Positions 6,526 through 45,417 of a stretch of DNA of 64,000 bases are shown here, piece by piece. Position numbers and translations under genes: made by a program. This stretch comes from Sulfitobacter sp. EhC04 (lineage in GTDB: Bacteria > Pseudomonadota > Alphaproteobacteria > Rhodobacterales > Rhodobacteraceae), in assembly GCF_001650875.1 (NCBI RefSeq), contig NZ_LXYI01000089.1:186001-250000 (forward strand), given 5' to 3'. Numbering within the stretch: position 1 is the stretch's first letter; the number at the start of each line of letters is the position of its first letter. Under the pieces are notes generated by a model. It had not been told where the DNA came from. It was given only the letters and a program-made list of their open reading frames with translations, and searched no databases.

Positions 6526-6968
6526 TTTATCTAACTCGTCCCCAGTCAGGTTTCTAACAAGCGCCAGAGCAGTCCGGCACCACACAATCCAGAACACAGA
6601 TCGACTGTCCGGTCCCAAGCGGAAACCGACCCAAGCCTCTGGACCTTTCAAACAAGGATTTTGCCAATCGATGCACCCAGGTGCATCGGTCTTGGCAAAA
6701 GCCGTCCGTATCAAAACGGACAGGGTAAACGCGCTAGCAGCAGCATTCACAATACGGGTGTGACGTGACCAAACCACATCCACCCGCGTCCCAAAATAGA
6801 TACTATCCGAAACCGAAAGTGCCTATTTACAGGGCCTGTCCCCCCACGCGAAATGAATCGCTCTATGTAGGTAGCAAGGACAGAGGCCGCGCTTCAACAT
6901 ATCTTCCGACTTGACTCACTTTTTTGTCAGGAAAGAATCTATGTCGGTTTTTTGAGACCTCAAATGCG
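6526..6968. other. dnaA leader / rpsT-dnaA intergenic region
   Basis: No convincing gene. The region holds the dnaA leader with an imperfect 42-nt inverted repeat (6659-6700) and a smaller hairpin GTCCG...CGGAC (6704-6721). I looked for DnaA boxes of the TTATCCACA type on both strands and for an AT-rich unwinding element and saw none, so this does not look like oriC. Confidence 0.6.
6659..6700 (-). promoter_or_regulatory. Long stem-loop in the dnaA leader
   Basis: Outer arms TTTTGCCAA (6659-6667) and TTGGCAAAA (6692-6700) enclose inner arms CGATGCACC (6669-6677) and GGTGCATCG (6680-6688), with a small asymmetric bulge and a 2-nt apex. It sits 134 nt upstream of the dnaA start. It could be an RNA structure in the leader or a dyad bound by a regulator; there is no U-tract. 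Confidence 0.5.
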
Positions 6969-6997
6969 AAAAAAGGCGCCGCTAAGCGACGCCTTTT
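6969..6997 (-). terminator. Rho-independent terminator of rpsT
   Basis: Read on the minus strand, AAAAGGCGTCGC, TTAG, GCGGCGCCTTTTTT forms a strong GC hairpin running into six U residues, 44 nt after the rpsT stop. Confidence 0.88.
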
Positions 6998-7040
6998 GAT
7001 TCAAGCAGATAGTCGATTCGGGTTGCGTGAACCCTGAAAA

Positions 7041-7304
7041 TCAAGCCAGCGATTTGACCCGTGCTGCCAGGCGCGACATTTTTCGCGATGCGGTGTTTTT
7101 ATGAAACACACCCTTTGTCACACCGCGCATCAGCTCGGGCTGCGCTGTTTTCAGGGCTTCGGCTGCTGCGGTCTTGTCGCCGGAAGCGATCGCTTCTTCG
7201 ACCTTGCGCAGGTAGGTGCGGATGCGCGAACGACGCGCCTTGTTGATCTGGAAACGCTTTTCGTTCTGACGTGCGCGCTTTTTGGATTGTTCTGTGTTTG
7301 CCAT
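7041..7304 (-). CDS. rpsT: 30S ribosomal protein S20
   Basis: Primary 16S rRNA-binding protein of the small subunit. The 87-residue, lysine/arginine-rich protein begins [17 protein letters not shown] and contains the typical S20 helices ([38 protein letters not shown]). Length is normal. It is monocistronic: a clear terminator follows at 6969-6997. Location next to dnaA is common in this group. Confidence 0.97.
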
Positions 7305-25621: not shown

Positions 25622-26173
25622 TCAGAAGCTGGGAGGGGTGCAGGCGCTGACCACTTCGCACACCACTGTGCCAATATTCCGGAACCTGTGAGGCAGATGG
25701 CTTTCGAAAAGATAGCCATCGCCGACGTTCAAGACTGAGACGTTTCCATCCACCGTCACCTCGATAGATCCCCGGATCACAATTCCTGCTTCTTCACCTT
25801 GATGAGAAAGCGATTCCGGTCCGGTGTCCGCGCCGGGTGGATAGGTTTCATGCAGCACTTGCAAGCTGTGGTTCTCGATGTTCCCCAACTGGCGCAGTGA
25901 GACCTGGCCAGGCGATGCCGGAGAGACTTCGGTGAACTCTTCGGCTGCGTAGAAGAACTTGGGCTGATTGCTGTTCTCCAGGGTCGAGAAGAATTCGGCC
26001 ATGCTGATCGGGATGGCGTCCAGCAGGCTTTTCAACGAGGCCACTGACGGGCTGGTTCTGTTCATTTCGATCAGGGAGATCGTACCGTTGGTCAGCCCGG
26101 CCCGCGCGGCCAGTTCACGTTGTGACAAGCCGCGCTGTTTGCGGATGGTTTTCAGTTTATGCCCGATGTCCAA
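25622..26173 (-). CDS. XRE-family regulator with C-terminal cupin (PuuR-like)
   Basis: N-terminal helix-turn-helix (IGHKLKTIRKQRGLSQRELA then LTNGTISLIEMNRTSPSVAS) and a C-terminal cupin (ESLSHQGEEAGIVIRGSIEV, GDGYLFESHLPHRFRN), the layout of PuuR, repressor of putrescine use. The frame opens upstream at 26239, but TTG 26173 has a good AAGGGG site 7 nt before it and yields 183 residues beginning LDIGHKLKTIRK, the usual length of the family, so I prefer it. It is divergent from a GabT-type aminotransferase, a likely target given polyamine/GABA metabolism. Confidence 0.85.
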   Translation of the reverse strand: MDIGHKLKTIRKQRGLSQRELAARAGLTNGTISLIEMNRTSPSVASLKSLLDAIPISMAEFFSTLENSNQPKFFYAAEEFTEVSPASPGQVSLRQLGNIENHSLQVLHETYPPGADTGPESLSHQGEEAGIVIRGSIEVTVDGNVSVLNVGDGYLFESHLPHRFRNIGTVVCEVVSACTPPSF

Positions 26174-26286
26174 GGCAGCACCCCTTAGGCTGTTCAATGC
26201 GTTCTGCAAGCACCGGAAATCGGTGTCTGCGACAAGCAAAATCCGGCTCAGATGCCGTTGGCAATCCCTTAATCCGCAAATCTGTG

Positions 26287-26322: not shown

Positions 26323-26366
26323 TAAACGCGGCTGTGCGCGTTTTCAATCGAAAGGATGCTTTTTCA

Positions 26367-27779
26367 ATGTCCGATACCGCTAAGAAACCGCGCCGCAAGG
26401 CTGCCCAGAAAAAAACCACGAAGTCCGCTGCATCCGCGCAGGCTGTCGTGAAGAATATCGTTTCCGCCGCTGTTGCGGGCGCGGATGTCACCAACGCCCA
26501 GTTGATCGAACGGCGCAATGCTGCCGTGGCACGGGGCGTCGCCTCTGCCGCACCGATCTATGCGCAATACGCCGAAAATGCCGAACTCTGGGATGTGGAG
26601 GGCAACCGCTACATTGATTTTGTAGGCGGCATTGGCGTGTTGAACACCGGCCACCGTCACCCCAAGGTGGTTGCGGCTGCCAAGGCCCAGGAAGACCATT
26701 ATACCCACACGTCCTTTCAGGTCGTGCCCTATGGTCCCTACATCGAACTGGCGGAGAAGCTGAACGCACTTGCCCCCGGCGATGCGCCCAAGAAGACCCT
26801 GCTGGTCACCACAGGTGCGGAAGCCGTGGAAAACGCGGTCAAGATCGCGCGCGCGGCCACCGGGCGTCCGGGTGTGATCGCCTTTACCGGTGGTTACCAT
26901 GGCCGCACGCTGCTGACGCTGGGCATGACCGGCAAGGTCAGCCCCTACAAGAAGGGCGTCGGCCCCTTCCCGGCGGATGTCTTCCGTGCGCCTTTCCCCT
27001 CTCTCCGTGACGGGATCACCGTCGAGGATGCGATCACCGGCCTGAAGAACCTGTTCCTGACCGATGCGGAGCCGTCCCGCGTGGCGGCGATCATCATCGA
27101 GCCTGTCTTGGGCGAGGGTGGCTATACGCCTGTACCTTTCGAGATGATGCAGCAATTGCGCGATATCTGTGACGAGCATGGTATTCTGCTGATCGCGGAC
27201 GAGGTGCAGTCGGGCTTTGGCCGGACCGGGACATGGTTTGCAATCGAGCATTCCGGCGTCGTACCGGACCTGATCACTGTGGCGAAGTCCATGGCAGGCG
27301 GCTATCCGCTGGCGGGTGTGATCGGCCGTGCCGATGTGATGGACGCCATGGAACCCGGCGGCCTGGGTGGCACCTATGGCGGCAACCCCGTTGCCTGTGC
27401 CGCCGCGCTGGCTGCAATCGAAGCGATCGAGGAAGAGGGCTTGCTGGCACGTTCCACGGCGATGGGTGAAACCCTGAAGGCGCGGTTCTCCGAAATCGGT
27501 GCGCGCTCTGCACCCTATCGTTTCTGGGACATCCGTGGCCTGGGCGCGATGGTTGCCGTCGAGTTCGTTACAGATTTCGACAGCGCCAAGCCGGATGCGG
27601 ACTTTACCAAGCGGGTCATCGCACATGCGCTCAAGCGCGGTCTGCTGCTGCTGGGCTGTGGCATGCATGGCAACGCGGTGCGTGTGATGGTGCCTTTGAC
27701 GGCTTCCGATGCGATTGTCGAGGAAGGTCTGTCGATCTTTGAAGCGGCTGTTCAGGCGGCGGTTTCCGAAGAAGCCTGA
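26367..27779 (+). CDS. gabT: 4-aminobutyrate-type aminotransferase with basic N-terminal extension
   Basis: Class III PLP aminotransferase, 470 residues from ATG 26367. The catalytic part starts around residue 48 (LIERRNAAVARGVASAAPIY) and shows WDVEGNRYIDFVGGIGVLNTG, the PLP-phosphate region TTGAEAVENAVKIARA, LIADEVQSGFGRTG, and the Schiff-base lysine in VAKSMAGGYPLAG, a GabT pattern. The first ~45 residues are an unusual Lys/Ala-rich extension (AKKPRRKAAQKKTTKSAASA). The divergent PuuR-like gene suggests control by polyamine or GABA breakdown. A strong terminator follows. Confidence 0.92.
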   Translation: MSDTAKKPRRKAAQKKTTKSAASAQAVVKNIVSAAVAGADVTNAQLIERRNAAVARGVASAAPIYAQYAENAELWDVEGNRYIDFVGGIGVLNTGHRHPKVVAAAKAQEDHYTHTSFQVVPYGPYIELAEKLNALAPGDAPKKTLLVTTGAEAVENAVKIARAATGRPGVIAFTGGYHGRTLLTLGMTGKVSPYKKGVGPFPADVFRAPFPSLRDGITVEDAITGLKNLFLTDAEPSRVAAIIIEPVLGEGGYTPVPFEMMQQLRDICDEHGILLIADEVQSGFGRTGTWFAIEHSGVVPDLITVAKSMAGGYPLAGVIGRADVMDAMEPGGLGGTYGGNPVACAAALAAIEAIEEEGLLARSTAMGETLKARFSEIGARSAPYRFWDIRGLGAMVAVEFVTDFDSAKPDADFTKRVIAHALKRGLLLLGCGMHGNAVRVMVPLTASDAIVEEGLSIFEAAVQAAVSEEA

Positions 27780-29912: not shown

Positions 29913-30872
29913 ATGAATATGTTCAAGATGCTTGCACTTGCCGGGGCCATGGCAGCCGGTACTGCGGCCACAGCACAAGAGAAGTTCATTACCATCGGTA
30001 CAGGCGGTCAGACCGGTGTTTATTTTGTCGTCGGTCAGTCGATCTGTCGCCTGGTAAACCGCGGCACTGCCGATCACAACCTGAAATGCACCGCGCCTTC
30101 CACCGGCGGTTCCATCGCCAACATCAATGCCATCAAGGCGGGTGACATGGACATGGGTGTGGCCCAGTCTGACTGGCAGTTCCACGCCTACAACGGTTCT
30201 TCGCAGTTCGAAGGGGACAAGTTCGACAAACTGCGCGCGGTGTTCTCCGTGCATGGTGAGCCGTTCAACGTGATCGCCCGCAACGACAGCGGTATCGCAT
30301 CCTTTGACGATCTCAAGGGCAAGCGGGTCAACATCGGCAACCCCGGCTCTGGCCAGCGCGCCACGATGGAAGTCGTGATGGATGCGAAAGGCTGGACGCT
30401 GGATGACTTTGCACTGGCCTCCGAACTGAAACCGGCAGAACAGGCTGCTGCGCTGGGCGACAACAAGGTCGATGCGATCATCTATACCGTCGGCCATCCC
30501 AACGGTTCCATCCAGGAAGCGGTTTCAACCATTGATGCCAGCCTTGTGCCCGTCGAAGGCCCCGAGATCGACAAACTGATCGCGGACAATCCTTACTATG
30601 CGGCCGCGACCGTACCGGGTGGCATGTACAAGGGCACCGACAGTGACGTGAGCACCTTTGGTGTGAAGGCGACATTCGTGACTTCCGCCGATGTGGACGA
30701 CGATGTGGTCTACCAGGTGGTCAAGGCGGTCTTTGACAACTTTGACCGGTTCAAGCGTCTACACCCCGCGTTCGAAAACCTGACCGAAGAAGAGATGATC
30801 TCGGGCGGTCTCTCCGCGCCGCTGCATGACGGCGCCGCGAAATACTACAAAGAGCGTGGCTGGATCGAATAA
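29913..30872 (+). CDS. TAXI-family TRAP transporter solute-binding protein
   Basis: Periplasmic binding protein of 319 residues. Signal peptide MNMFKMLALAGAMAAGTAATAQ, then the TAXI-family start FITIGTGGQTGVYFVVGQSI, STGGSIANINAIKAGDMDMG and the ligand-region GKRVNIGNPGSGQRATMEVVM. It partners the fused permease 113 nt downstream. TAXI systems have been linked to glutamate, 2-oxoglutarate and other carboxylates, but the ligand here cannot be read from sequence. Confidence 0.94.
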   Translation: MNMFKMLALAGAMAAGTAATAQEKFITIGTGGQTGVYFVVGQSICRLVNRGTADHNLKCTAPSTGGSIANINAIKAGDMDMGVAQSDWQFHAYNGSSQFEGDKFDKLRAVFSVHGEPFNVIARNDSGIASFDDLKGKRVNIGNPGSGQRATMEVVMDAKGWTLDDFALASELKPAEQAAALGDNKVDAIIYTVGHPNGSIQEAVSTIDASLVPVEGPEIDKLIADNPYYAAATVPGGMYKGTDSDVSTFGVKATFVTSADVDDDVVYQVVKAVFDNFDRFKRLHPAFENLTEEEMISGGLSAPLHDGAAKYYKERGWIE

Positions 30873-30894
30873 GCCAACCTGTTCCATGCTTTGT

Positions 30895-30920
30895 CCGGTG
30901 GCGGTCCTGATCGCCGCCGG
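30895..30920 (+). other. Intercistronic hairpin between TRAP binding protein and permease
   Basis: CCGGTGGCG and CGCCGCCGG arms form a 9-bp stem with an 8-nt loop. Such hairpins commonly lower expression of the permease relative to the abundant binding protein; no U-tract follows. Confidence 0.6.
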
Positions 30921-30985
30921 ATCGCCCGAAGGGGCATATAACAAGCACCTGCGCAAATGCGGGGCTCAGACAGGGACGATCTAAA

Positions 30986-33736
30986 ATGACCAATAGTGAT
31001 CAGCAGCAGGCCGCAGCGGTAGAAGCCGCCGCCGATGGCCGTGGTGGATTGAGCCAATCCGAACTGGACGAACTTGTCGCATCCTCTGACACCGGTGGCA
31101 GGTCCGTTCGCGGACCGATTGGCACCTTGCTGATGCTGGTCGCTCTGGCATGGTCATTGTTCCAACTCTACATCGCATCGCCATTCGGCCTGTTCAACGA
31201 CACGCTTGCCCGATCCATCCACCTCGGCTTTGCCGTTTTCCTGGGGATCATGGCGTTTCCGGCAGCGCGGACCAAGTTCCAGATGGCGCTGGGCATCGTC
31301 GTGCCGCTGGCACTGGCGGCGCTGTTCATGGTTGCCGCCAAAGATGGTATCGCGACTTGGTGGATTCCGCTTCCGGCGATTGCGGTCGCGGCAACGGTCA
31401 TTCTTGGCTCTCCCAAGGACCGGGTTCCGATCTGGGAATGGGCGCTTGCGATCATCGGCGCGCTGGCTGCATTGTATCTGTTCCTGTTCTACCGTGACAT
31501 CGCCAACCGCGTCGGCGCACCGATCATGCAGGACTATGTGGTGGCTGTCATTGGCATCCTGATCCTGCTGGAGGCGACCCGTCGCGCATTGGGCCCGGCC
31601 CTGATGATCGTTGCTTCGGTCTTCCTGCTTTATACGGTTCTGGGGCCAAACATGCCCTCGATCATCGCGCACAAGGGCAACAGCCTGTCCGAGATCGTGA
31701 ACCACCAATGGATCACCACCGAAGGTGTGTTTGGCATCGCGCTGGGTGTTTCGACATCATTCGTGTTCCTGTTCGTGCTGTTCGGCTCCTTGCTGGACCG
31801 TGCCGGGGCGGGCAACTACTTTATCCAGGTGGCGTTCAGCCTGATGGGCCATATGAAGGGCGGACCGGCCAAGGCCGCTGTTGTTGCCTCTGCCATGACG
31901 GGTCTGATCTCTGGTTCGTCCATCGCCAATGTGGTGACGACCGGCACATTCACCATCCCCCTGATGAAGAAGGTCGGGTTCAGTTCTGAAAAGGCGGGCG
32001 CGGTCGAAGTTGCCTCCTCGGTCAATGGTCAGATCATGCCGCCGGTCATGGGGGCTGCGGCCTTCCTAATGGTCGAATATGTCGGCATCCCCTATTTCGA
32101 TGTGGTCAAACATGCCTTTCTGCCGGCGGTGATTTCCTACATCGCGCTGGTCTATATCGTGCATCTTGAGGCGCTCAAGGCCGGCATGCAGGGCCTGCCG
32201 CGTGCCTATACGCCCAAGCCCATCGTGCAGCGCCTGATCGGCATGGCCTTTGCCATCGCAGCGATCTGTGTTCTGTCTTTTGTGGTTTACTACGGCATGG
32301 GCTGGATCCGCCCCGCCTTCCCGGAAACGGCTTCCTACATCATCTTTGCCTTCCTCACGATTGTCTATGTCGCGCTGCTGTATGTGGCGAGCAAGGAAGA
32401 ACCGCTGAAACTGGACGACCCGAACGACGAGGTTACGTCACTGCCCTTGCCGGGCCCGACCGCGCGGTCCGGCCTGCATTTCATCCTGCCGGTTGTCGTG
32501 CTGGTCTGGGCGCTGATGGTGGACCGTCTGTCGCCGGGCCTGTCGGCCTTCTGGGCTTCGGCCTACATGATCTTCATCCTGCTGACCCAGCGTCCGCTGA
32601 TGGCGATTTTCCGCGGCGAGAGCAAACTGGCAACCGACATCAAGGATGGCTTCCTGGACCTGATCGACGGTCTGGTCACAGGCGCGCGCAACATGATCGG
32701 GATCGGCATCGCCACGGCGACGGCAGGTATCATCGTGGGCGCGGTCAGCCAGACCGGCGTGGGGTCCGCCCTTGCCGATGTGGTCGAAGTGCTGTCGGGC
32801 GGTAACATCCTCGCCATTCTGGCGCTGACGGCTGTGCTGTCGCTGATCCTGGGGATGGGCCTGCCGACCACGGCGAACTATATCGTGGTGTCGGCACTGC
32901 TGGCGCCGGTGATCGTGACGCTGGGCCAGCAGAACGGGCTGATCGTGCCGCTGATCGCCGTGCACCTGTTCGTCTTCTACTTCGGGATCATGGCGGATGT
33001 GACGCCGCCTGTCGGCCTTGCGTCCTTTGCCGCTGCGGCGGTGTCGGGCGGAGATCCGATCAAGACCGGCGTGGTGGCGTTCTTCTATTCGCTGCGCACG
33101 GCGGCGCTGCCCTTCCTGTTTATTTTCAACACCGAACTGCTGTTGATCAATGTCGGTTGGGGGCAGGGTATATTCGTCTTTGTTGTGGCCACTGTCGCGA
33201 TGCTGCTGTTCGCGGCGGCGACGCAGGGCTGGTTCCTGGCGAAGAACCGCTTTTACGAGACCATCGCGCTGCTGCTGGTCGCCTTTACGCTGTTCCGTCC
33301 GGGTTTCTGGATGGACATGGTATCGCCGCCCTATGATGAGGTCGCGCCGTCCGAGATCACGCAGGCTGCCGCCGACACGATGCCGGGGAACGATCTGCGC
33401 CTGCGGGTTGCGGGGGTCAACGACCTGGGCGATCCCATCGAATTCGTGGCAATCCTGCCAATTGGGGAAGGCGCGACAGGTGAGGAAAAGCTGGAAACCT
33501 CGGGTCTGGTGTTCCGCGAGGACGGCGACAAGATGATCATTGACGACGTAGCTTTCGACAGCCCTGCACAAAATGCCGGTCTGGATTGGGACCAGGAGGT
33601 GCTGCGCGTGCTCAAGCCGGTTTCGCAACCAACGAAGTACCTGATGTTCATCCCCGCCCTGTTGCTGCTGGCGCTGGTGGTCTTTCTGCAGCGGGGCCGC
33701 AACGGTCGCCCCGCGCGCGAGCCTCAGGCGGCCTGA
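30986..33736 (+). CDS. TRAP transporter fused permease (4TM/12TM) with C-terminal DUF3394-like domain
   Basis: 916-residue inner-membrane protein combining the small (DctQ) and large (DctM) TRAP subunits. Many hydrophobic segments; DctM core motifs include GLISGSSIANVVTTGTFTIP, SSVNGQIMPPVMGAAAFLM, LILGMGLPTTANYIVVSALL and FGIMADVTPPVGLASFAAAA. After the last TRAP segments a soluble region (about residues 780-880; VAPSEITQAAADTMPG and FDSPAQNAGLDWDQEV, resembling DUF3394 with a PDZ-like stretch) is followed by a final membrane span. Works with the TAXI binding protein using an ion gradient. Confidence 0.94.
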   Translation: MTNSDQQQAAAVEAAADGRGGLSQSELDELVASSDTGGRSVRGPIGTLLMLVALAWSLFQLYIASPFGLFNDTLARSIHLGFAVFLGIMAFPAARTKFQMALGIVVPLALAALFMVAAKDGIATWWIPLPAIAVAATVILGSPKDRVPIWEWALAIIGALAALYLFLFYRDIANRVGAPIMQDYVVAVIGILILLEATRRALGPALMIVASVFLLYTVLGPNMPSIIAHKGNSLSEIVNHQWITTEGVFGIALGVSTSFVFLFVLFGSLLDRAGAGNYFIQVAFSLMGHMKGGPAKAAVVASAMTGLISGSSIANVVTTGTFTIPLMKKVGFSSEKAGAVEVASSVNGQIMPPVMGAAAFLMVEYVGIPYFDVVKHAFLPAVISYIALVYIVHLEALKAGMQGLPRAYTPKPIVQRLIGMAFAIAAICVLSFVVYYGMGWIRPAFPETASYIIFAFLTIVYVALLYVASKEEPLKLDDPNDEVTSLPLPGPTARSGLHFILPVVVLVWALMVDRLSPGLSAFWASAYMIFILLTQRPLMAIFRGESKLATDIKDGFLDLIDGLVTGARNMIGIGIATATAGIIVGAVSQTGVGSALADVVEVLSGGNILAILALTAVLSLILGMGLPTTANYIVVSALLAPVIVTLGQQNGLIVPLIAVHLFVFYFGIMADVTPPVGLASFAAAAVSGGDPIKTGVVAFFYSLRTAALPFLFIFNTELLLINVGWGQGIFVFVVATVAMLLFAAATQGWFLAKNRFYETIALLLVAFTLFRPGFWMDMVSPPYDEVAPSEITQAAADTMPGNDLRLRVAGVNDLGDPIEFVAILPIGEGATGEEKLETSGLVFREDGDKMIIDDVAFDSPAQNAGLDWDQEVLRVLKPVSQPTKYLMFIPALLLLALVVFLQRGRNGRPAREPQAA

Positions 33737-33785
33737 CCGTCATTCCGGCACAGCGGTCATATCGGCCTGATCAGGGCGAATCAAG

Positions 33786-33818
33786 CAGGCGCAACTTCGC
33801 CTGTTTCCCTTCCCCTTT
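33786..33818 (+). terminator. Terminator-like hairpin after the TRAP permease
   Basis: CAGGCG-CAACTT-CGCCTG (33786-33803) followed by pyrimidine-rich TTTCCCTTCCCCTTTT, consistent with partial termination before the nitrilase operon. Confidence 0.55.
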
Positions 33819-33899
33819 TATGGGCGTAAGGGACGTGCAATCCGGTGTTATCAAGGGCGCCTCCAAGCCCTCGCACCGCCTTTCACGGAGTGACAAGTT

Positions 33900-35012
33900 A
33901 TGACCCCATTCGCAATTGCCGGCGTACAAATGTACGTCAATGCGCTGCAATCGAACGTCGATGGCATGATCCAGCGGCTCGACATCCTGATGGCGCGGTT
34001 CCCTTGGACCCAGATGGTGCTGTTTTCTGAACTTGCCCCCTTTGGTCCGCTGGACCGCTTTGCACTGCCGCCTGAAAACGAGACCATCGGCAAGTTCCAG
34101 GAAGCCGCGAAAAAGCACCGGGTCTGGCTGATACCGGGTTCCATGTTCCTCAAGAATCCGGAAGACGGTCGCGTCTACAATACATCTGTGGTCATCAACC
34201 CTGAAGGCGAGGTGATCCGCCGCTATGCCAAGATGTTCCCGTTCAGGCCCTATGAGACAGGTATCGCCGCTGGCACTGAGTTCTGTGTGTTCGATGTGCC
34301 GGACGTGGGCCGTTTCGGCCTGTCGATCTGCTATGACATGTGGTTCCCGGAAACCACGCGCCAGCTGACCAGCCAGGGCGTCGAGGTGCTGTTGCACCCG
34401 GTACTTACCGGCACGACCGACCGCGATGCTGAACTGGCGATCGCGCGGGCGACGGCGGCGCAGTTTCAATGCTATATCTTTGACGTGAACGGTCTGGGCG
34501 CGGGCGGTGTGGGCAAATCCTGCGTGGTCGATCCGACCTCCATGGTGCTGCACCAGTCGGCGGGGCAAGAAGACATGTTCCCGATCGAAGTGGACCTGTC
34601 CATGGTACGTCGTCAACGCGAGACGGGCATGAAAGGGCTGGGCCAGGTGTTGAAGTCCTTCCGCGACCGGTCCACCGATTTCTCTGTCTATGACCGCACC
34701 AGTGGCACGGATGCTTATCTGCAAACGCTCGGCCCGCTTGAAATCCCGCATCAGGGCACAAGGGCGGGGTTGCATGTCGATGTACCGGCCCAGCGTGTGC
34801 CAGAGGCTCCGACCTTCAAGGGGCAGGATTCAATGTCTGCCTTTTCTCACACACCGGGCGGTTTCGCACCCGAGCCGATGCCGAACCCAACTGCCGGAAC
34901 CGCTATTCCTGCCACTGAATCACAAATCCCCGCGGCAACTGCCGGGGGGGTGCCGAACCCGCCTGTCAAACCTGGCATTCTGACCGGGACTGAAGAAACA
35001 TCCAGCGGGTAA
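33900..35012 (+). CDS. Carbon-nitrogen hydrolase (nitrilase superfamily) with Pro-rich tail
   Basis: Predicted amidase that cleaves a C-N bond of an amide, carbamoyl or nitrile. 370 residues; catalytic triad Glu44 (FSELAPFG), Lys111 (RYAKMFPF) and Cys144 (LSICYDMWFPE) are all present. Residues 1-265 hold the catalytic domain; the last ~100 are Pro/Ala/Thr-rich (HTPGGFAPEPMPNPTAG) and look disordered, unusual for the family. First gene of a tight unit with decarboxylase, ATP-grasp and C45-type genes (gaps 76, 17, 27 nt), 163 nt behind the TRAP permease. Confidence 0.88.
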   Translation: MTPFAIAGVQMYVNALQSNVDGMIQRLDILMARFPWTQMVLFSELAPFGPLDRFALPPENETIGKFQEAAKKHRVWLIPGSMFLKNPEDGRVYNTSVVINPEGEVIRRYAKMFPFRPYETGIAAGTEFCVFDVPDVGRFGLSICYDMWFPETTRQLTSQGVEVLLHPVLTGTTDRDAELAIARATAAQFQCYIFDVNGLGAGGVGKSCVVDPTSMVLHQSAGQEDMFPIEVDLSMVRRQRETGMKGLGQVLKSFRDRSTDFSVYDRTSGTDAYLQTLGPLEIPHQGTRAGLHVDVPAQRVPEAPTFKGQDSMSAFSHTPGGFAPEPMPNPTAGTAIPATESQIPAATAGGVPNPPVKPGILTGTEETSSG

Positions 35013-35088
35013 ACCGCCACACGTTTGCCCTGGCGCTTCGGTGCCGGGGCGGAATGTCGTTGGTGACCCCGCTACAACGGAGAACACA

Positions 35089-37827
35089 ATGCATTCCTTG
35101 AACGATTATTCCTCGGCGATCCAAATGCGCTCTGATCGGTGGAGCGCATTGAGAGAGGCGACATCCGCCCTCACGCGCGACCCCAAGCCCGCCGAAAAGA
35201 ACAAGCTGACCAAGACCGCCAAAGAACTGTTTGAGTCATTGGCGATGATCGAAGCCTACTGGGCCTTTCCGGGCATGGCGGCATTCGAGCACATGCGCAG
35301 GCAGTTCGAGCATGAAAAATTCGAAGATGTCGCATTTGCGATCAATCGGGTGACCCGCGCGCTGACCACCGGGGCCTACAGGCGGCGGCACATCCCGTTG
35401 GAACGTGACAGCATCGACCAGGATGAACATGATGACGAGGCCATGTTGCCGCCAGAAGCGCGTGCGATGGCCAAGCCATATTTCGAGGTCCTGATCGTCG
35501 ACAACGTGAACGAGCATCAGGAACGCTGGCTCAAGGCGAACATGACCCGCATGCGGCGCAGCGAAGACCCGTTTATCTATGAGGCGGTTGTCGTGCCAAG
35601 CATCGAGGATGCGCTGATTGCGGTGATGTTCAACCACAACATTCAAGCCATCGTCGTGCGTCCCGGTCTGACCCTGAAATCGTCGATGGACCTGCAAATC
35701 CTGACGCGCTACCTGGCCCGCGCGGGCGGACGCAAGGAAATCAGCGCGCTGTCACCCGAGGTCTATGGCCCCGAGTTGTGCCGGATGATTGCCAAGGTGC
35801 GCCCGGAGCTGGATGCCTATCTGGTCACCGAGCGTTCGGTCGAGGACATCGCCGGACTGGATCTGGGGATTTGTCGCCGGGTCTTCTACAACCAGGAAGA
35901 CTTCATGGAGTTGCACCTGAACATCCTGCGGGGTGTTCAGTCGCGTAACAAATCGCCATTCTTCACAGCCCTTGTCGAATACTCCAAGCAACCCACCGGC
36001 GTGTTCCACGCCATGCCGATCAGCCGGGGTAAATCCATTTCCCGGTCGCACTGGATTCAGGACATGGGGGCCTTTTACGGGCCGAACATTTTCCTGGCGG
36101 AAACCTCTGCCACGTCGGGCGGGCTGGACAGCCTGCTGGAACCCCACGGCCCGATCAAGGAAGCGCAAGAGCTTGCCGCGCGGGCATTCGGGTCGAAACA
36201 GACCTTTTTTGCCACCAACGGCACATCGACCTGTAACAAGATCGTGGTGCAGGCGCTGATCAAGCCGGGTGACATCGTTCTGGTCGACCGCGACTGCCAC
36301 AAGTCGCACCATTACGGCATGGTGCTTGCGGGCGCGCAGGTCTGCTATCTGGACAGCTATCCGCTGAACCAATATTCGATGTACGGTGCTGTGCCGCTGC
36401 ATGACATCAAGAAACAACTGCTTGACCTGAAGGCAGCGGGCAAGCTGGACAAGGTGCGGATGCTGCTGTTGACCAACTGCACCTTCGACGGGCTGGTCTA
36501 TAATGTCGAACGGGTGATGGAGGAATGTCTGGCAATCAAGCCCGACCTGATCTTCCTCTGGGACGAGGCATGGTTCGCCTTTGCCCGCTTCAGCCCGACC
36601 TACCGGCAGCGGACCGCCATGAATGCGGCGAACTCCCTGCGTGAAAAGCTGCGTTCGGACGAGCACGCGCAATTGTACGAAGCCCAGCAGGCAAAGCTGG
36701 AAAAAGCCGATGCCGAGAAACTGCTGAACACCCGCCTGCTCCCGCCACCCAATGCGCGGGTAAGGGCCTATGCCACGCAGTCAACGCACAAGACGCTGAC
36801 CTCTCTGCGGCAAGGGTCGATGATTCACGTCAACGATCAGGACTTCAAGGGTGAGGTGGAGCAGTCATTCCACGAGGCCTATATGACCCATACGTCGACC
36901 TCGCCCAACTACCAGATCATCGCCTCACTGGACGTAGGCAGGCGACAGGTGGAACTGGAAGGCTTCGAATTCGTGCAGCGACAGGTTGAAGCGGCAATGT
37001 CGATGCGCCGGGCGATTTCTGAACATCCCCTATTGTCGAAATATTTCAAGATTCTGACGGCCGGTGACATGATCCCGGAAGCGCATCGCGAAAGTGGCGT
37101 GACCAGCTATTTCGACACCCAGCAAGGCTGGACCGATATGTGGGATTGCTGGGAGAACGACGAGTTCGCCCTCGACCCAACGCGCGTGACCCTGGCCGTT
37201 GGCGGCACGGGCTGGGACGGTGACACGTTCAAGACCGAGATCCTGATGGATAAATACGGCATCCAGATCAACAAGACCTCGCGCAATACCGTGTTGTTCA
37301 TGACCAACATCGGCACCACACGGTCTTCTGTCGCCTATCTGATCGAGGTTCTGGTCGAGATCGCCAAAAGCCTGGATGAGCGTCTGGATGATGCCAGCCG
37401 GATGGAGCGCCTGTCCTTTGACAAGCGGGTCACCAACCTGATGGAGCATTACCCGCCGCTGCCGGATTTCAGCCGTTTCCACGACGCTTTCCGCGCCGCT
37501 CAGGACACGCCGGAAGGGGATATCCGCACGGCGTACTATCTTAGCTACGACGATGAGAACTGCGACTACCTTGAGCTTGACGGCTCTCTCAAGGACGCGA
37601 TGAAAGAGGGCAAGACGCTGGTCTCTGCCAGCTTTATCATCCCCTATCCACCGGGTTTCCCGATCCTTGTCCCCGGACAGGTGATCTCGGAGGAAATCCT
37701 TGATTTCATGCGCGCTTTGGATGTCAGCGAAATCCATGGCTACCGGCCCGATCTGGGCCTGCGCGTGTTTACCCAAAAGGCATTGGATGGCGTCAGCGCC
37801 AACCGGCTTGCTGCAACTTCGGACTAA
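35089..37827 (+). CDS. Orn/Lys/Arg-type PLP decarboxylase
   Basis: 912 residues from ATG 35089 (MHSLNDYSSAIQMRSDRWS). An N-terminal wing or receiver-like region (FEVLIVDNVNEHQERWLKAN; about residues 135-260), a fold-type I PLP core with FFATNGTSTCNKIVVQALI, PLP aspartate Asp492 in WDEAWFAFARFS, Schiff-base Lys568 in STHKTLTSLRQGS, and the C-terminal domain GFPILVPGQVISEEILDFM. The group decarboxylates basic amino acids to cadaverine, putrescine or agmatine, but at 912 residues it is longer than the E. coli enzymes (about 710-750), mostly through the N-terminus. Substrate specificity is open. Confidence 0.9.
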   Translation: MHSLNDYSSAIQMRSDRWSALREATSALTRDPKPAEKNKLTKTAKELFESLAMIEAYWAFPGMAAFEHMRRQFEHEKFEDVAFAINRVTRALTTGAYRRRHIPLERDSIDQDEHDDEAMLPPEARAMAKPYFEVLIVDNVNEHQERWLKANMTRMRRSEDPFIYEAVVVPSIEDALIAVMFNHNIQAIVVRPGLTLKSSMDLQILTRYLARAGGRKEISALSPEVYGPELCRMIAKVRPELDAYLVTERSVEDIAGLDLGICRRVFYNQEDFMELHLNILRGVQSRNKSPFFTALVEYSKQPTGVFHAMPISRGKSISRSHWIQDMGAFYGPNIFLAETSATSGGLDSLLEPHGPIKEAQELAARAFGSKQTFFATNGTSTCNKIVVQALIKPGDIVLVDRDCHKSHHYGMVLAGAQVCYLDSYPLNQYSMYGAVPLHDIKKQLLDLKAAGKLDKVRMLLLTNCTFDGLVYNVERVMEECLAIKPDLIFLWDEAWFAFARFSPTYRQRTAMNAANSLREKLRSDEHAQLYEAQQAKLEKADAEKLLNTRLLPPPNARVRAYATQSTHKTLTSLRQGSMIHVNDQDFKGEVEQSFHEAYMTHTSTSPNYQIIASLDVGRRQVELEGFEFVQRQVEAAMSMRRAISEHPLLSKYFKILTAGDMIPEAHRESGVTSYFDTQQGWTDMWDCWENDEFALDPTRVTLAVGGTGWDGDTFKTEILMDKYGIQINKTSRNTVLFMTNIGTTRSSVAYLIEVLVEIAKSLDERLDDASRMERLSFDKRVTNLMEHYPPLPDFSRFHDAFRAAQDTPEGDIRTAYYLSYDDENCDYLELDGSLKDAMKEGKTLVSASFIIPYPPGFPILVPGQVISEEILDFMRALDVSEIHGYRPDLGLRVFTQKALDGVSANRLAATSD

Positions 37828-37844
37828 GGAAAAGGACCAATACC

Positions 37845-39302
37845 ATGGCTACTATTCTCAAGAATATCTCAGAAATCCGCCGGTTCTTTCACCGGAACGA
37901 AGACCCCATCTATTTCATCTCGGCGACGAATTTCAACCTTCTGGGGCTGGATGAATGGGTGAAGAATTTCAAATATATCTGCTACATCGACTGCTACGGC
38001 GGCAAGCACCCCAACGTGTTCTGCCCGTCAGAGCAGCCGCATGCGGAATTCCAGTCCATCGAGGATATCAACAACTACCTGTTGCAGCACAAGGAAGTCA
38101 TCGACTTCATCAAGCGGCGCGGCGGCAAGCCCAAGTTCGTGTTTCTGATGTTCGATGAAGAGACAGAGCGCCTTTCAAAGGAGTTGGGCGCAACCGTGTG
38201 GTTCCCCAAAGCCAAACTGCGCCAGAGCATGGACAACAAGATCGAAACCGTCCGCATCGGCAACAAGGCGGGTGTGCCGTCGGTGCCCAATGCCCTGTCG
38301 GAGGTCAAGGATTACGACCATCTCAAGAAGATCTGCGAGAAGGAAAACCTCGGCCACGACCTTGTCTTGCAATCGGCCTTTGGCGACAGCGGGCATACGA
38401 CGTTCTTCATCAAGTCCGAAGCCGATTTCCGCCGCCACGAATCCGAGATCGTGGGCGAGGGCGAGATCAAGATCATGAAGCGGATCGACTGCCGGGGGGC
38501 GGCGATCGAGGCTTGCGCGACAAAGGAAGGCACAATTGTCGGGCCGCTGATGACCGAACTGGTGGGGTTCAAGGAACTGACGCCCTATCGCGGTGGCTGG
38601 TGCGGCAACGAGATTTTGGCAACGGCGTTCCCGCCGAAAGTGCGCGAAAAGGCGCGTGAGCTAACCTTCAAGTTCGGTGAACAGCTGCGCAAGGAAGGCT
38701 ATCGCGGATATTTCGAGCTTGATTTTCTAATCGACAAAAAGACCGGCGACCTTTGGTTGGGCGAGTTGAACCCGCGCATCACCGGCGCGTCCTCCATGAC
38801 CAACCACGCGGCGTTTGCCCATGCGGATGCGCCTTTGTTCCTGTTCCACCTGCTTGAGTTCTCCAAGAAGAAATTCGACCTCGATGTGGACGAGTTGAAC
38901 AGCCGCTGGGCCGACCCGGAGATGATCGACGGCTGGTCCCAGATGGTGATCAAGCACACCGACGACAGTGTGGACATCTGCACTACGTCCCCGGAAACCG
39001 GCATCTACAAGATGCTGGAAGACGGGCGCGTGGTCTTTGACCGCTTCGACTATCACCGGCGCGCCGTTGAATCGGAGAACGAAGCCTTCTTCCTACGCAT
39101 CCTGCAACCCGGCGATTATCGCTATGAAGGGGCCGACATCGGCATCCTGGTGACACGTGGCCGGTCGATGACCAAAAGTTTCCAGTTGAACGAGCGTGCG
39201 AAAAAGTGGATTCACGGGATCAAGAGCGGCGTGGACGGCAAACCCCTGCCAACCGCCCAGGCCGGTCCGGAACTGTCGGACCCGGCGTTCAAGATCCTCT
39301 GA
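37845..39302 (+). CDS. ATP-grasp ligase (biotin-carboxylase-like fold)
   Basis: 485-residue ATP-grasp protein. The central region (residues about 120-330) shows the ATP-grasp fold: RQSMDNKIETVRIGNKAGVP, LVLQSAFGDSGHTTFFIKSE, EIKIMKRIDCRGAAIEACA, and the Mg-binding segment RGYFELDFLIDKKTGDLWLG followed by ELNPRITGASSMTNHAAF. It lacks the carboxyltransferase partners and biotin-binding protein, so carboxylation is unlikely; ATP-grasp enzymes of this kind usually form amide or peptide bonds. It starts 17 nt after the decarboxylase, suggesting it ligates the decarboxylation product or its relative. Confidence 0.86.
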   Translation: MATILKNISEIRRFFHRNEDPIYFISATNFNLLGLDEWVKNFKYICYIDCYGGKHPNVFCPSEQPHAEFQSIEDINNYLLQHKEVIDFIKRRGGKPKFVFLMFDEETERLSKELGATVWFPKAKLRQSMDNKIETVRIGNKAGVPSVPNALSEVKDYDHLKKICEKENLGHDLVLQSAFGDSGHTTFFIKSEADFRRHESEIVGEGEIKIMKRIDCRGAAIEACATKEGTIVGPLMTELVGFKELTPYRGGWCGNEILATAFPPKVREKARELTFKFGEQLRKEGYRGYFELDFLIDKKTGDLWLGELNPRITGASSMTNHAAFAHADAPLFLFHLLEFSKKKFDLDVDELNSRWADPEMIDGWSQMVIKHTDDSVDICTTSPETGIYKMLEDGRVVFDRFDYHRRAVESENEAFFLRILQPGDYRYEGADIGILVTRGRSMTKSFQLNERAKKWIHGIKSGVDGKPLPTAQAGPELSDPAFKIL

Positions 39303-39329
39303 TGTAACTTTCACCGCCGAAAGGTTGCG

Positions 39330-40301
39330 ATGTACTGGCGTGCACTTGATATTGAAACGCCCGGATCGAAGTGGTCCGGGCTTTTCGCCGAATATTGGCC
39401 CGACTATCGCAAGTGGTGGCTCAAGGAAGGTGCGTCCGCCCGGCCGACCTATTCGGAGTGTCGGCGTGCCCTGGGCGAGCATATGCCCGAGATGCTGCCG
39501 CTTTACGACGATCTTTGCGCGCTTGCGGGCGGCGGCGACAATGCCGCGCGGTTCTTGAGCTTCTACAACCCGCCACCCTACCTTTCGGGCTGTTCGCAGG
39601 CGATCTGGGCGGGCAGGGAACCGGTCATGGTGCGCAACTATGACTACAACCCAAATGCCTTTGACCAATTGGTGCTGCGGACCAACTGGCAGGGGCGCAG
39701 GGTCATGGGCACCTCGGACGGGCTTTGGGGGCTGGTGGATGGTGTGAACGATGCCGGGCTGGCAATTTCGCTTACCTTCGGTGGGCGGCGGATTGTTGGG
39801 AAGGGGTTCGGCGTGCCGCTGATCCTGCGCTATGTGCTGCAGACCTGTTCAACCACCGAAGAGGCGACGGCGGTTCTGGCGCGGGTGCCCACGCACATGA
39901 GCTATAATGTGACGGTGCTGGACAAGAAGCGGAAGTATGCGACCGCGATGATGGGCCCGGACCGTGAGGCGCTGATCACCCACGCAGCTGTGGCAACGAA
40001 CCATCAGGAGAACGTGGAGTGGGTCAGCCATGCCAGGTTCACCGCAACGGTCGAACGCGAGCGGTTCCTGCTGCAAAGGCTCCGGCTGCACAAGGACCCG
40101 GAAGAAAAATTCATCAATGCCTTCCTGAAACCGCCGCTTTACTCGACGGCATTCAATGCCGGGTTTGGCACGCTTTACACGGCGGTCTACCGCCCCCGAA
40201 AGCGCGAAATGGAACTGCGCTGGCCCGGCACGACCTGGGCGTTGTCGCTGAGTGACTTCACCGAAGGCGCGCGCGAGGTGCTGGTGCCGGGTGCCGCGTG
40301 A
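39330..40301 (+). CDS. C45-family autoproteolytic Ntn acyltransferase/hydrolase
   Basis: 323-residue protein related to acyl-CoA:6-aminopenicillanic acid acyltransferase. The expected nucleophile Cys88 lies in PPPYLSGCSQAIWAG, preceded by Gly as the autocleavage site, followed by PVMVRNYDYNP and GTSDGLWGLVDGVNDAGLAI, which are typical of the family. Self-cleavage between Gly87 and Cys88 would expose the catalytic amine. Such enzymes hydrolyse or exchange acyl amides. It is the last gene of the nitrilase-decarboxylase-ATP-grasp unit. Confidence 0.85.
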   Translation: MYWRALDIETPGSKWSGLFAEYWPDYRKWWLKEGASARPTYSECRRALGEHMPEMLPLYDDLCALAGGGDNAARFLSFYNPPPYLSGCSQAIWAGREPVMVRNYDYNPNAFDQLVLRTNWQGRRVMGTSDGLWGLVDGVNDAGLAISLTFGGRRIVGKGFGVPLILRYVLQTCSTTEEATAVLARVPTHMSYNVTVLDKKRKYATAMMGPDREALITHAAVATNHQENVEWVSHARFTATVERERFLLQRLRLHKDPEEKFINAFLKPPLYSTAFNAGFGTLYTAVYRPRKREMELRWPGTTWALSLSDFTEGAREVLVPGAA

Positions 40302-40364: not shown

Positions 40365-40395
40365 AATGGCCCCGCTCAGCGTTGAGCGGGGCCAT
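40365..40395 (-). terminator. Bidirectional terminator between C45 and PfpI genes
   Basis: Perfect 13-bp arms ATGGCCCCGCTCA and TGAGCGGGGCCAT with a GCGT loop; on the minus strand it runs into TTTTTGG. It separates convergent transcripts. Confidence 0.9.
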
Positions 40396-41142: not shown

Positions 41143-41805
41143 ATGAAGGACACAGTTGAACCCATGACAAGCACGCCGCTGGATGAACTGATTGTTTGTC
41201 CGCAATGCGACGCTGTTTATCATCTGAAACGGCCCCGCGTGGGGGAGCGTGCGCAATGCCAGCGATGCCATAAGGTGCTGATCGCGCCACGGCAGAACGC
41301 CGGGCTGCGCATCATTGCCGTCGCGCTCGCGGTGATGATCCTGGTCATCGGGGCCGCTGTCTTTCCCTTTTTGTCGATTGATGCGGCGGGCACGGAAAAT
41401 GCCGTTTCGGTGCTGGATGCGGCGCTCGCCTTTTCAGGGGGGCCGATGATTTTCCTGTCGCTGGCCACGGCGGGGCTGATCATCATCATCCCGCTGGTTC
41501 GCGCATTCCTCACCCTTTATGTGCTTGTGCCCGTGGTGCTGGACCGTGACCCGGCCCCGCATGCCATGCAGGCTTTCCGCCTGTCAGAGGCGCTGCGGCC
41601 CTGGTCCATGGCAGAGATCTTCGCGATCGGCTGTGCAGTTGCGCTGGTCAAGGTGTCGGATCTTGCCCAGGTCGGATTTGGCCCCGCTTTCTGGATGTTC
41701 GGTATTCTCGTTGTCCTTGTCATCGCGCAAGACAGCTTTATGTGTAAATGGTCTGTATGGAACTCACTGGAAAACCCCAGAACACCGTCAGCGCCAAGGA
41801 CCTGA
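41143..41805 (+). CDS. pqiA: PqiA-family membrane protein, first half
   Basis: 220 residues. An N-terminal zinc-ribbon-like region with paired cysteines (VCPQCDAVYHLKRPRVGERA and CQRCHKVLI) precedes four hydrophobic segments. E. coli PqiA carries two such units in one chain; here each unit is a separate gene. ATG 41164 (MTSTPLDELIV) is an alternative start. It heads a pqiA-pqiA-pqiB-pqiC operon that moves lipids between inner and outer membrane in related systems. Confidence 0.88.
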   Translation: MKDTVEPMTSTPLDELIVCPQCDAVYHLKRPRVGERAQCQRCHKVLIAPRQNAGLRIIAVALAVMILVIGAAVFPFLSIDAAGTENAVSVLDAALAFSGGPMIFLSLATAGLIIIIPLVRAFLTLYVLVPVVLDRDPAPHAMQAFRLSEALRPWSMAEIFAIGCAVALVKVSDLAQVGFGPAFWMFGILVVLVIAQDSFMCKWSVWNSLENPRTPSAPRT

Positions 41806-42407
41806 ACCTTGTTGCCTGCACGCGTTGCGCAAAGGTCTGGCCGGTTTCGGCCAGCATATGCGGGCGTTGTGGTCACAAACTGGTGTCACGTGATACCCAC
41901 AGCCTGAGCCGTGTCTGGGCGCTTTGGGTGATCGGGTTCATGTGCTATATCCCCGCGAACATCTTTCCGATGCTGAAGACCCGCACCCTGTTTCAGGAGG
42001 ATGACAGCACCATCATCGGCGGTGCGGTCGAACTGGCGCATTACGGCAACTTTGGAATCGCGGCGATCATCATCTTTGCTTCCGTCTTTATCCCGTTGGG
42101 AAAATTCTGGGCTGTGGCCTATCTTGCGATTAGCATCAACGCCGGTTCCCGGATCAGCATGCGCCGTCGACAGATGATGTATGAGGTGGTCGAATACATC
42201 GGCCGCTGGTCGATGATCGACATATTTGTCGTTGCGATTATGTCCGCATTGGTGCAACTCAAGGCACTGGCGTCCATAAATCCCGGCCCGGCGAGCATAT
42301 TTTTTGCGTTGTCGGTGATTTTCACGATGCTGTCGGCGCAAGCTTTTGATTCCCGTTTGATCTGGGATGCGCAAGTCAAGGATGGGGGTCCAGGACGCGA
42401 TGAATGA
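41748..42407 (+). CDS. pqiA: PqiA-family membrane protein, second half
   Basis: 219 residues overlapping the previous gene by 58 nt. Cysteine motif ACTRCAKVWPVSASICGRCG then four hydrophobic segments, with the PqiA signature IPANIFPMLKTRTLFQEDDS and GRWSMIDIFVVAIMSALVQL. ATG 41757 (MELTGKPQNT) may be the true start. Together with its neighbour it equals the two-domain E. coli PqiA. Confidence 0.88.
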   Translation: MVCMELTGKPQNTVSAKDLNLVACTRCAKVWPVSASICGRCGHKLVSRDTHSLSRVWALWVIGFMCYIPANIFPMLKTRTLFQEDDSTIIGGAVELAHYGNFGIAAIIIFASVFIPLGKFWAVAYLAISINAGSRISMRRRQMMYEVVEYIGRWSMIDIFVVAIMSALVQLKALASINPGPASIFFALSVIFTMLSAQAFDSRLIWDAQVKDGGPGRDE

Positions 42408-44847: not shown

Positions 44848-44850
44848 CAG

Positions 44851-45417
44851 ATGGTTTTTGTAAAACGCGCACTGGGCTTCGGCCTGATCCTGATGCTGGC
44901 AGCCTGTGGTGGCAATGCGACCCGCTTCGCAGTCAACACCCCGGCCGTGACCCAGAGCGAGCGCATCGCCTTTGCCGCTGTCGAAGTGCGGGATGTTTCA
45001 TTGCCCAGCTACGCCGCATCTGATGAAATCGCTGTTCAGGCCGAAGACGGGACGCTCACCAGCTCATCCGATGTGCTTTGGGCCGATGCGCCGGAACGCG
45101 CCATCGCGCTGGAGCTGAGCCAGAACCTTGCCCGGATGACGGGGCGCCGCGTCGCGTCGGAACCCTGGCCCTTCCAGGCCTTTCCCGATGCACGGCTTGA
45201 GGTGCGTTTTGCCGATCTGGTTGCGATGTCGACCGGGTCATTTCGTGCGTCCGGGCAGTATTTCGTTGCTGTGACGGATGGCCGACGGGAACGGTCGGGC
45301 CTGTTTGACCTGAGCGTGGCTTTTGATCCAGCGGGCGGGCCGGGGGCCATCGCTGCCGCGCGGGGGCAGTTGATCCTGGATCTTGCCCGTTTCATCGCGC
45401 GAGACGGGATGAAATAG
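44851..45417 (+). CDS. pqiC: PqiC-like outer-membrane lipoprotein (ABC-type transport auxiliary)
   Basis: 188 residues with a lipoprotein signal (FGLILMLAAC; lipobox LAAC, Cys at about residue 19). The mature part has the PqiC/YmbA pattern IAFAAVEVRDVSLPSYAASD and ALELSQNLARMTGRRVASEP. PqiC forms the outer-membrane end of the Pqi bridge. It starts 3 nt after pqiB. Confidence 0.88.
   Translation: MVFVKRALGFGLILMLAACGGNATRFAVNTPAVTQSERIAFAAVEVRDVSLPSYAASDEIAVQAEDGTLTSSSDVLWADAPERAIALELSQNLARMTGRRVASEPWPFQAFPDARLEVRFADLVAMSTGSFRASGQYFVAVTDGRRERSGLFDLSVAFDPAGGPGAIAAARGQLILDLARFIARDGMK

Follow-up and report, generated by a model that had tools for sequence, protein, structure and literature searches.

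The genome of Sulfitobacter sp. EhC04 (4.85 Mb, 89 contigs) carries a conserved operon of four genes, which we analyzed within a stretch of 64,000 nucleotides (contig NZ_LXYI01000089.1, positions 186,001 to 250,000; this whole stretch is called the window and all its coordinates count from its first nucleotide). All four genes lie on the plus strand and encode a nitrilase-superfamily amidase (NIT, 33900..35012, 370 amino acids (aa); PF00795 (CN_hydrolase), E 2.3e-28), an Rv2531c-type pyridoxal phosphate (PLP) decarboxylase with the ornithine/lysine/arginine decarboxylase fold (DEC, 35089..37827, 912 aa; OKR_DC_1, PF01276, E 2e-77), an ATP-grasp ligase (GRASP, 37845..39302, 485 aa; NF005096, 756.5 bits against a cut-off of 684) and an N-terminal nucleophile (Ntn) acyltransferase or amidohydrolase with Cys88 as nucleophile (C45, 39330..40301; NF040521 (C45_proenzyme), 187 bits, which is over the family cut-off of 85). 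The length of DEC is counted from an ATG, the listed open frame beginning at an in-frame GTG at 35041. From these coordinates the gaps within NIT-DEC-GRASP-C45 are 76, 17 and 27 nt. A preliminary description of this DNA had given the same positions and gaps, and the enzyme classes it had named (nitrilase, decarboxylase, ATP-grasp, C45-type Ntn protein) are borne out by the family scans. The catalytic residues it had picked out, Glu44, Lys111 and Cys144 in NIT, Lys568 in DEC and Cys88 in C45, are all present and are invariant in the loci covering them.

The four-gene operon is real and strongly conserved. We compared it with 80 related loci, counted by tblastn, which are the best 80 of at least 571 confirmed candidates in named genomes and therefore close relatives (in the following, L and G with a number denote single loci and genomes). 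DEC stands beside GRASP in 80 of 80 loci and C45 in 79, the sole miss (L058) lying at a contig end. NIT is found in 75; four of its misses (L048, L098, L109 and L122) are at contig ends, and only at L095 it is truly absent within the stretch. Rare clustering of the four genes, which would have refuted the preliminary description, is thus not what we find. The transporter, which had been taken as a fixed member of the operon, did not turn out to be one: TAXI components are present in 39 and TRAP components in 40 of the 80 loci, with Opp-type ABC transporters or an amino-acid permease at other loci. A match to the 4-aminobutyrate (GABA) transaminase GabT was found in 42 of the 80 loci, though some of these matches are weak (about 33% identity) and concern a different aminotransferase of class III; 23 loci have a PuuR-like regulator.

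Among 398 Pseudomonadota genomes we found 11 full-length GRASP genes, eight over the family cut-off and three below it (655, 513 and 511 bits), the remaining listed matches being weak and partial with at most 51 bits. In the 15–20 kb around each of the 10 genes outside the window genome, DEC and C45 are present in 10 of 10 cases and NIT in eight, without a NIT in the stretches of L042 and L043. With 11 GRASP genes in 398 genomes and DEC and C45 near all 10, this linkage is not due to chance. Two further surveys, which overlap so that some genomes are counted more than once, revealed GRASP in 11 of 385 genomes of the window's own class and in 10 of 369 genomes of another class of the same phylum. 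The core recurs across the 19 stretches read from them (L167–L175, L188–L197; of these L173, L174, L175, L188, L190, L194 and L197 end at contig ends on the relevant side), with exceptions at L168 and L195, which are described below, at L196, where a shortened GRASP occurs with C45, and at L170 and L172, where NIT was not seen. The GRASP of the window shares 98% identity with that of Sulfitobacter sp. DFL-14, and the unit is found in many marine Roseobacteraceae but is patchy (4 of 27 same-family genomes listed). It also occurs on rhizobial plasmids: 32 of 72,556 plasmid records carry GRASP (E up to 1e-30), 26 of them from Rhizobium or Sinorhizobium. Three rhizobial plasmids carry DEC-GRASP-C45, two of them in a visibly damaged form (L158 and L161, both from Rhizobium leguminosarum), in which DEC is split or shortened; in L158 C45 is also cut short and the unit lies near nif genes. 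Upstream of the unit in L161 (3145-6971) we noticed a cluster of the type for ribosomally synthesized and post-translationally modified peptides, with a radical SAM methyltransferase, an epimerase and a Nif11-like leader peptide.

DEC matches the solved structures 9n0n, 9n0o and 9n0p over nearly its full length (residues 13–908 of 912, E 6e-250), whereas lysine, arginine and ornithine decarboxylases match it in two shorter stretches. Among 114 loci, the PLP-binding Lys568 is conserved in 112 of 112 covering this position, D492 and W495 each in 111 of 111 and H404 in 110 of 110. These residues correspond to the lysine of STHK, the Asp and Trp of DEAW and the His of CHKS, which we take to be the key positions of ornithine/lysine/arginine decarboxylases, and together with PF01276 they assign DEC to the OKR_DC_1 fold. 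An ordinary lysine or arginine decarboxylase unrelated to its neighbours would have refuted the preliminary description; DEC is distinct from these, scoring 222.6 bits with the LdcC model (cut-off 968), 176 with AdiA (cut-off 1167) and 158 with the ornithine decarboxylase SpeF (cut-off 1310). The homologous structures belong to Rv2531c of Mycobacterium tuberculosis (9N0O), whose activity is called not clarified in a passage of a 2026 review (PMC12910592). For DEC itself a substrate from the arginine family would be expected from the genomic contexts described below. DEC is not a strict partner of GRASP: 17 of the 398 genomes contain it (E up to 1e-80), 11 of which are the GRASP genomes, and the other six lack a full-length GRASP and show no GRASP, C45 or NIT match in the 20 kb around DEC. 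In all six (L141–L146) a match to an Asp-Al_Ex type transporter adjoins DEC (Pfam-scanned in two of the six, identity 30% in one), suggesting a decarboxylase-antiporter pair. In a quick tree the stand-alone DECs group together on a starred branch of their own.

GRASP scores over the cut-off of NF005096 (PRK06524), a model named biotin carboxylase, and biotin carboxylase domains are its nearest solved chains by sequence. A Pfam scan at E 0.001 assigns it to no family, and 11 of 11 members show the CPSase_L_D2 ATP-binding domain once E is relaxed. In an alignment with pyruvate carboxylase, EVNPRIQVEH of the latter stands opposite ELNPRITGAS of GRASP, so that QVEH, presumably the bicarbonate-binding and catalytic residues of biotin carboxylase, reads TGAS. 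Within this stretch G314 is identical in 116 of 116 and S316 in 115 of 116 covering loci. A typical biotin carboxylase was therefore set aside, and with QVEH replaced by TGAS we read GRASP as a putative ligase of the carboxylate-amine type. That it has no biotin partner, as had been proposed before, holds for the ten neighbouring proteins scanned, among which no biotin carrier was found (the rest of the genome was not searched). The structure model of GRASP was unusable (pLDDT 54.9, shallow alignment) and no fold search was made with it.

For C45 we obtained a better structure model (pLDDT 82.8). Its best solved fold match is isopenicillin N acyltransferase (2x1d, E 3e-10), a member of the C45 family that shares with C45 not only the fold but also a Cys nucleophile behind an N-terminal stretch, which comprises 87 residues in C45. 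The next matches are the precursors of N-acylethanolamine amidase and acid ceramidase, which have the same fold. Identity to the 50 best fold matches is 11–18%, and no solved relative was found by sequence at E up to 0.1. Cys88 is present in 113 of 113 covering loci (of 114), and self-processing before this residue would be expected. Of the Gly87-Cys88 cleavage site proposed earlier the cysteine is thus invariant, whereas the residue before it varies (G in 96, A in 8, S in 8 and D in 1 of the 113). NIT has the nitrilase triad, as Glu44, Lys111 and Cys144 are identical in 98 of 98 aligned loci. Hydrolysis of amides or carbamoyl groups is the chemistry of the nitrilase family. With the models of N-carbamoylputrescine amidase, formamidase and deaminated-glutathione amidase NIT stays below the cut-offs, at 59 against 410, 70 against 406 and 63.5 against 355 bits, respectively. 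In the window NIT possesses a proline-rich C-terminal tail of about 80 residues past the amidase core (34770-35012, seen by eye in the translation); the median frame among the loci is 337.5 aa compared to 370 aa here.

The most informative loci are those in which DEC is replaced. On plasmids of Shinella zoogloeoides, Roseateles sp. XES5 and Sinorhizobium sp. RAC02, GRASP and C45 occur without an adjoining DEC in a gene run that also contains an amino-acid permease, a universal stress protein, an agmatinase, an AruI-type 5-guanidino-2-oxopentanoate decarboxylase, an aldehyde dehydrogenase, a D-amino-acid dehydrogenase, a racemase and RidA; the opposite strand carries NIT and an Lrp regulator. 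These gene names derive from annotations for Shinella and Roseateles and from homology for Sinorhizobium sp. RAC02, and the three plasmids are closely related (Shinella and Sinorhizobium sp. RAC02 share 90–97% identity). The same replacement is found in a genome of another class (G687, locus L168), where NIT, GRASP and C45 lie on the same strand, DEC is missing beside them, and permease, agmatinase, AruI-type decarboxylase, aldehyde dehydrogenase, D-amino-acid dehydrogenase and racemase show 53–62% identity to those of Shinella. At E up to 1e-30 no DEC was detected in the whole G687 genome, nor in two of the three plasmid records; for the plasmid hosts no other replicon was searched. The AruI model scores 737 against a cut-off of 500, and the agmatinase model TIGR01230 is over its cut-off in five of five neighbours tested (Shinella, L167, L082, L168 and L192); for the racemase, ornithine racemase is the best model, with a score below cut-off. 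In total, an AruI-type decarboxylase and an agmatinase-family gene are linked to NIT, GRASP and C45 in four loci, L160, L164, L165 and L168. The AruI-linked GRASPs do not form one clade (approximately unbiased (AU) test, p 1e-14, for a group chosen after the tree was inspected), and the GRASP tree needs at least three changes between DEC and AruI context. A ketoarginine-type route stands in the place of DEC in two separate branches. Either the two were swapped repeatedly, or GRASP-C45 joined such clusters repeatedly, and either history ties GRASP-C45 to the same metabolism as the ketoarginine-type route. Starting from arginine or from an ornithine modified at its side chain, the DEC and the AruI route give the same aldehyde and acid towards GABA. 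The arginine network is set out in parts of PMC7268258.

GABA-related and other catabolic genes were also found around units that retain DEC, the names of these neighbours being based on homology. Agmatinase-family genes lie near DEC in L167 (69% identity to that of Shinella), L082 (75%, directly after C45), L191 (43%) and L192 (45%). GabT together with succinate-semialdehyde dehydrogenase (SSADH) is present near the unit in L041, L167, L172 and L115, the last of which additionally encodes an M20-type protein and an importer of the Opp type. A PRK07483-type aminotransferase follows C45 directly in 18 of 85 loci (the family was named for L055 alone). In the window only GabT is near the unit, and a 61% relative of the Shinella agmatinase is encoded on another contig of the genome. 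L037 and L038, which come from different genera of the same family, have the unit within a DoeA-DoeB-DoeX ... Ssd-Atf-EutB operon for ectoine catabolism (DoeA and DoeB models over cut-off in L038, 80–89% identity for L037). As only 2 of 122 distinct loci searched for ectoine genes lie in such an operon (6 of 122 without GRASP), a unit specific to ectoine catabolism was rejected. An apparent link to a polyamine ABC transporter in L110 was also dropped, this system being a phosphate (Pst) transporter and probably unrelated. Genome G734 (L167, L173) encodes an additional C45 next to the operon, and a divergent second set of NIT-C45-GRASP lies on a different contig; in L041 the gene of an Imm49-family immunity protein (6352-7209) adjoins that of C45.

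From these data we propose that NIT-GRASP-C45 together with DEC is a catabolic module. That it leads from the arginine family to GABA is quite probable at the level of the module as a whole; the more specific version, in which this happens via attachment and removal of an acyl group, has a chance somewhat short of even, and the masking mechanism as such is held tentatively, with more doubt than belief. The substrate would be arginine, ornithine or a close derivative, which DEC would decarboxylate to the amine. GRASP, using ATP, would then join a carboxylic acid to the amino group as a mask; masking would prevent the cyclisation of aminobutyraldehyde. The free end would be oxidized by an aminotransferase, possibly the PRK07483-type enzyme beside C45 in some loci, and an aldehyde dehydrogenase, before C45 might split the acyl-GABA into GABA and the recycled acid. 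For NIT, it might be the substrate or the donor that carries the primary amide or carbamoyl group to be hydrolyzed. Where the variant clusters lack DEC, its part would be taken by racemase, D-amino-acid dehydrogenase, keto-acid decarboxylase and aldehyde dehydrogenase, which would arrive at the same masked aldehyde and acid, and GabT and SSADH would pass GABA into succinate. The most constant pair are GRASP and C45, with a front end that varies and GABA as the probable exit. In its simplest form the scheme would be to mask, oxidize and unmask, GRASP attaching the acid to an amino group of an arginine-family compound whose alpha-carboxyl end DEC or the racemase-AruI route takes away. Gene identities, catalytic residues, conservation and the ketoarginine-type route found instead of DEC are seen in the data; we infer all substrates, the acid that GRASP attaches, which bonds C45 and NIT cleave and in which sequence the steps occur. 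The preliminary description had suggested amide formation followed by acyl removal, which stays the leading mechanism, unproven as it is; in place of the unspecified polyamine-derivative system it had also suggested, the context points to catabolism from the arginine family to GABA.

Several observations weigh against this proposal. None of the four enzymes has an assigned substrate, and the names of the neighbouring genes rest on homology only. The Roseateles sp. XES5 plasmid does contain a DEC elsewhere (with no GRASP or C45 match within 19 kb around it), and in L102 a DEC unit has a 46% AruI-like gene about 3.8 kb away, so that the DEC and AruI routes are not strictly exclusive. At L211 and L212, in two genomes that also carry the DEC unit, a separate AruI-aldehyde dehydrogenase-agmatinase set lies without GRASP or C45 within 20 kb; these steps can therefore do without GRASP and C45, and for arginine itself the use of masking in the AruI variants is not obvious. 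On the Cupriavidus necator plasmid L166, NIT-GRASP-C45 follows an Opp importer, with DEC and a complete AruI-type gene both missing nearby; at L195 GRASP is accompanied by an aminotransferase but by no DEC or C45, and NIT was not seen in L095, L042, L043, L170 and L172 despite room for it. In one neighbour scan, only 1 of 85 loci had an agmatinase-family gene linked to the unit. The ectoine operon at L037 and L038 gives no specific pointer to arginine, and we admit that the ectoine and Opp contexts leave room for other nutrients.

Such importers would suit the salvage of a conjugate, in which an arginine-containing amide or small peptide-like nutrient is taken up and opened by C45 and NIT, the arginine is consumed by DEC or the racemase-AruI route, and GRASP either works on a product or forms a conjugate that serves regulation or trapping. 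Opp-type ABC importers adjoin the unit in L065, L073, L075, L115, Cupriavidus L166, Roseobacter ponti and Rhizobium L161, the M20-type protein of L115 (PRK07079, a model named hypothetical protein) and an amidase-family protein in L172 fit a hydrolytic pathway, and the interchangeability of the DEC and AruI routes would be explained as well. However, salvage leaves no clear task for an ATP-consuming ligase that is the most constant partner of C45, and we regard it as unlikely, if the most serious of the alternatives. The operon could also be biosynthetic and make an agmatine- or GABA-type amide as osmolyte, signal or inhibitor, from an amine provided by DEC, GRASP and C45 being used to form the amide or to exchange it; ATP-grasp enzymes and polyamine decarboxylases do produce E-64-type pseudopeptides according to passages of PMC12568646. 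This is improbable in view of the importers, GabT, SSADH, PuuR-like regulator and ectoine or arginine catabolic genes that recur around the unit, and no recurring exporter is among the named neighbours (no search aimed at exporters was made). That NIT is the glutaminase partner of GRASP and both convert a carboxylate into a primary amide would have a precedent in the eukaryotic NAD synthetase, described in a passage of PMC3376133 as a nitrilase-like glutaminase fused to the synthetase, and NIT and GRASP are near neighbours. The five loci in which NIT was not seen and the Shinella plasmid, where NIT is divergent and some 7 kb from GRASP, make such a glutamine-dependent amidation highly improbable. 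Still more remote is true biotin-type carboxylation of a guanidino or biotin substrate by GRASP, for which the name of NF005096 and the biotin carboxylase domains as nearest solved chains would speak; against it stand NPRITGAS in place of NPRIQVEH with its nearly invariant G314 and S316, and the ten scanned neighbours lacking a biotin carrier.

In the window the module is accompanied by accessory genes. Upstream on the plus strand lie a TAXI-family TRAP substrate-binding protein (29913..30872; TIGR02122, 360 bits, cut-off 84) and a fused TRAP permease with a DUF3394 C-terminal domain (30986..33736; TIGR02123, 653 bits, cut-off 321; PF11874). Further upstream are GabT, the 4-aminobutyrate transaminase and a likely downstream partner of the pathway (26334..27779, plus strand; TIGR00700, 551 bits, cut-off 507), and, on the minus strand, a PuuR-like XRE-cupin regulator (25622..26239; PuuR is the best NCBIfam model with 146 bits, under its cut-off of 211). 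Directly 3' of C45 follows a terminator-like hairpin of 13 pairs (40366..40395, plus strand), which is a consensus match only; terminator-like sites are about as frequent in the region (19) as in shuffled sequence (15.5, sd 4.1). The genes 3' of the unit (41143-45417) resemble paraquat-inducible PqiA/PqiB/PqiC as judged by eye from their translations, and such genes recur beside the unit in 11–15 loci.

In summary the parts of the module come from known superfamilies, and their combination and its link to arginine and GABA look undescribed in the literature searched, as no description of the gene set was among the matches listed from one open-access library. If our proposal is true, Rv2531c-type decarboxylases would share a pathway with an ATP-grasp family classified as biotin carboxylase and with one group each of nitrilases and bacterial C45 proteins. 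With the ketoarginine-type route found where DEC is missing, a few guanidino and diamino compounds are left as candidates, which makes the proposal directly testable. As the unit occurs in marine Roseobacteraceae and on rhizobial plasmids, it may also matter for the nitrogen turnover of arginine, GABA and compatible solutes in seawater and near the roots of plants.

Among known systems, the fungal E-64 pathway resembles the module in that an ATP-grasp enzyme forms an amide with a decarboxylase-derived amine; there an amide synthetase works together with a decarboxylase and an ATP-grasp enzyme (PMC12568646, in part). In contrast to the module it is biosynthetic and its ATP-grasp enzyme probably belongs to a different family, and no C45 or nitrilase appears in passages of that paper selected on other terms. 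The arginine transaminase/dehydrogenase route (AruI, guanidinobutyrate, agmatinase-type ureohydrolase, GABA) and the rhizobial CATCH-N system share GABA as expected end product with the module, and such enzymes replace DEC in four loci, whereas the operon in the window uses DEC. The term nitrilase has 0 occurrences in the CATCH-N paper (PMC7268258); ligase and C45 were not searched there. For putrescine, the order of masking, oxidizing and unmasking is described in parts of PMC10606097 for the Puu pathway. In Puu/Pau (PuuA-PuuB-PuuC-PuuD), as proposed for the module, an ATP-dependent ligase and an amidohydrolase flank the oxidation of an amine to GABA, and GabT, SSADH or a PuuR-like regulator recur near the module. 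PuuA is of the glutamine-synthetase type and PuuD of the glutamine-amidotransferase type. The ligase and the hydrolase of the module are instead an ATP-grasp enzyme and a C45 Ntn protein, a decarboxylase and a nitrilase are added, and the acyl donor may differ from glutamate, the donor in the gamma-glutamylation of Puu/Pau. Within the cluster, to which the search was confined, there are no homologues of the PuuA or PuuD type, GRASP and C45 falling into other families. It is conceivable, if rather doubtful, that the module represents a new mask-oxidize-unmask strategy for arginine-family amino acids, with an amine-forming Rv2531c-type DEC or a racemase-ketoarginine route as alternative front ends, in which an unassigned ATP-grasp family and a C45 protein have independently reinvented the logic of PuuA and PuuD.

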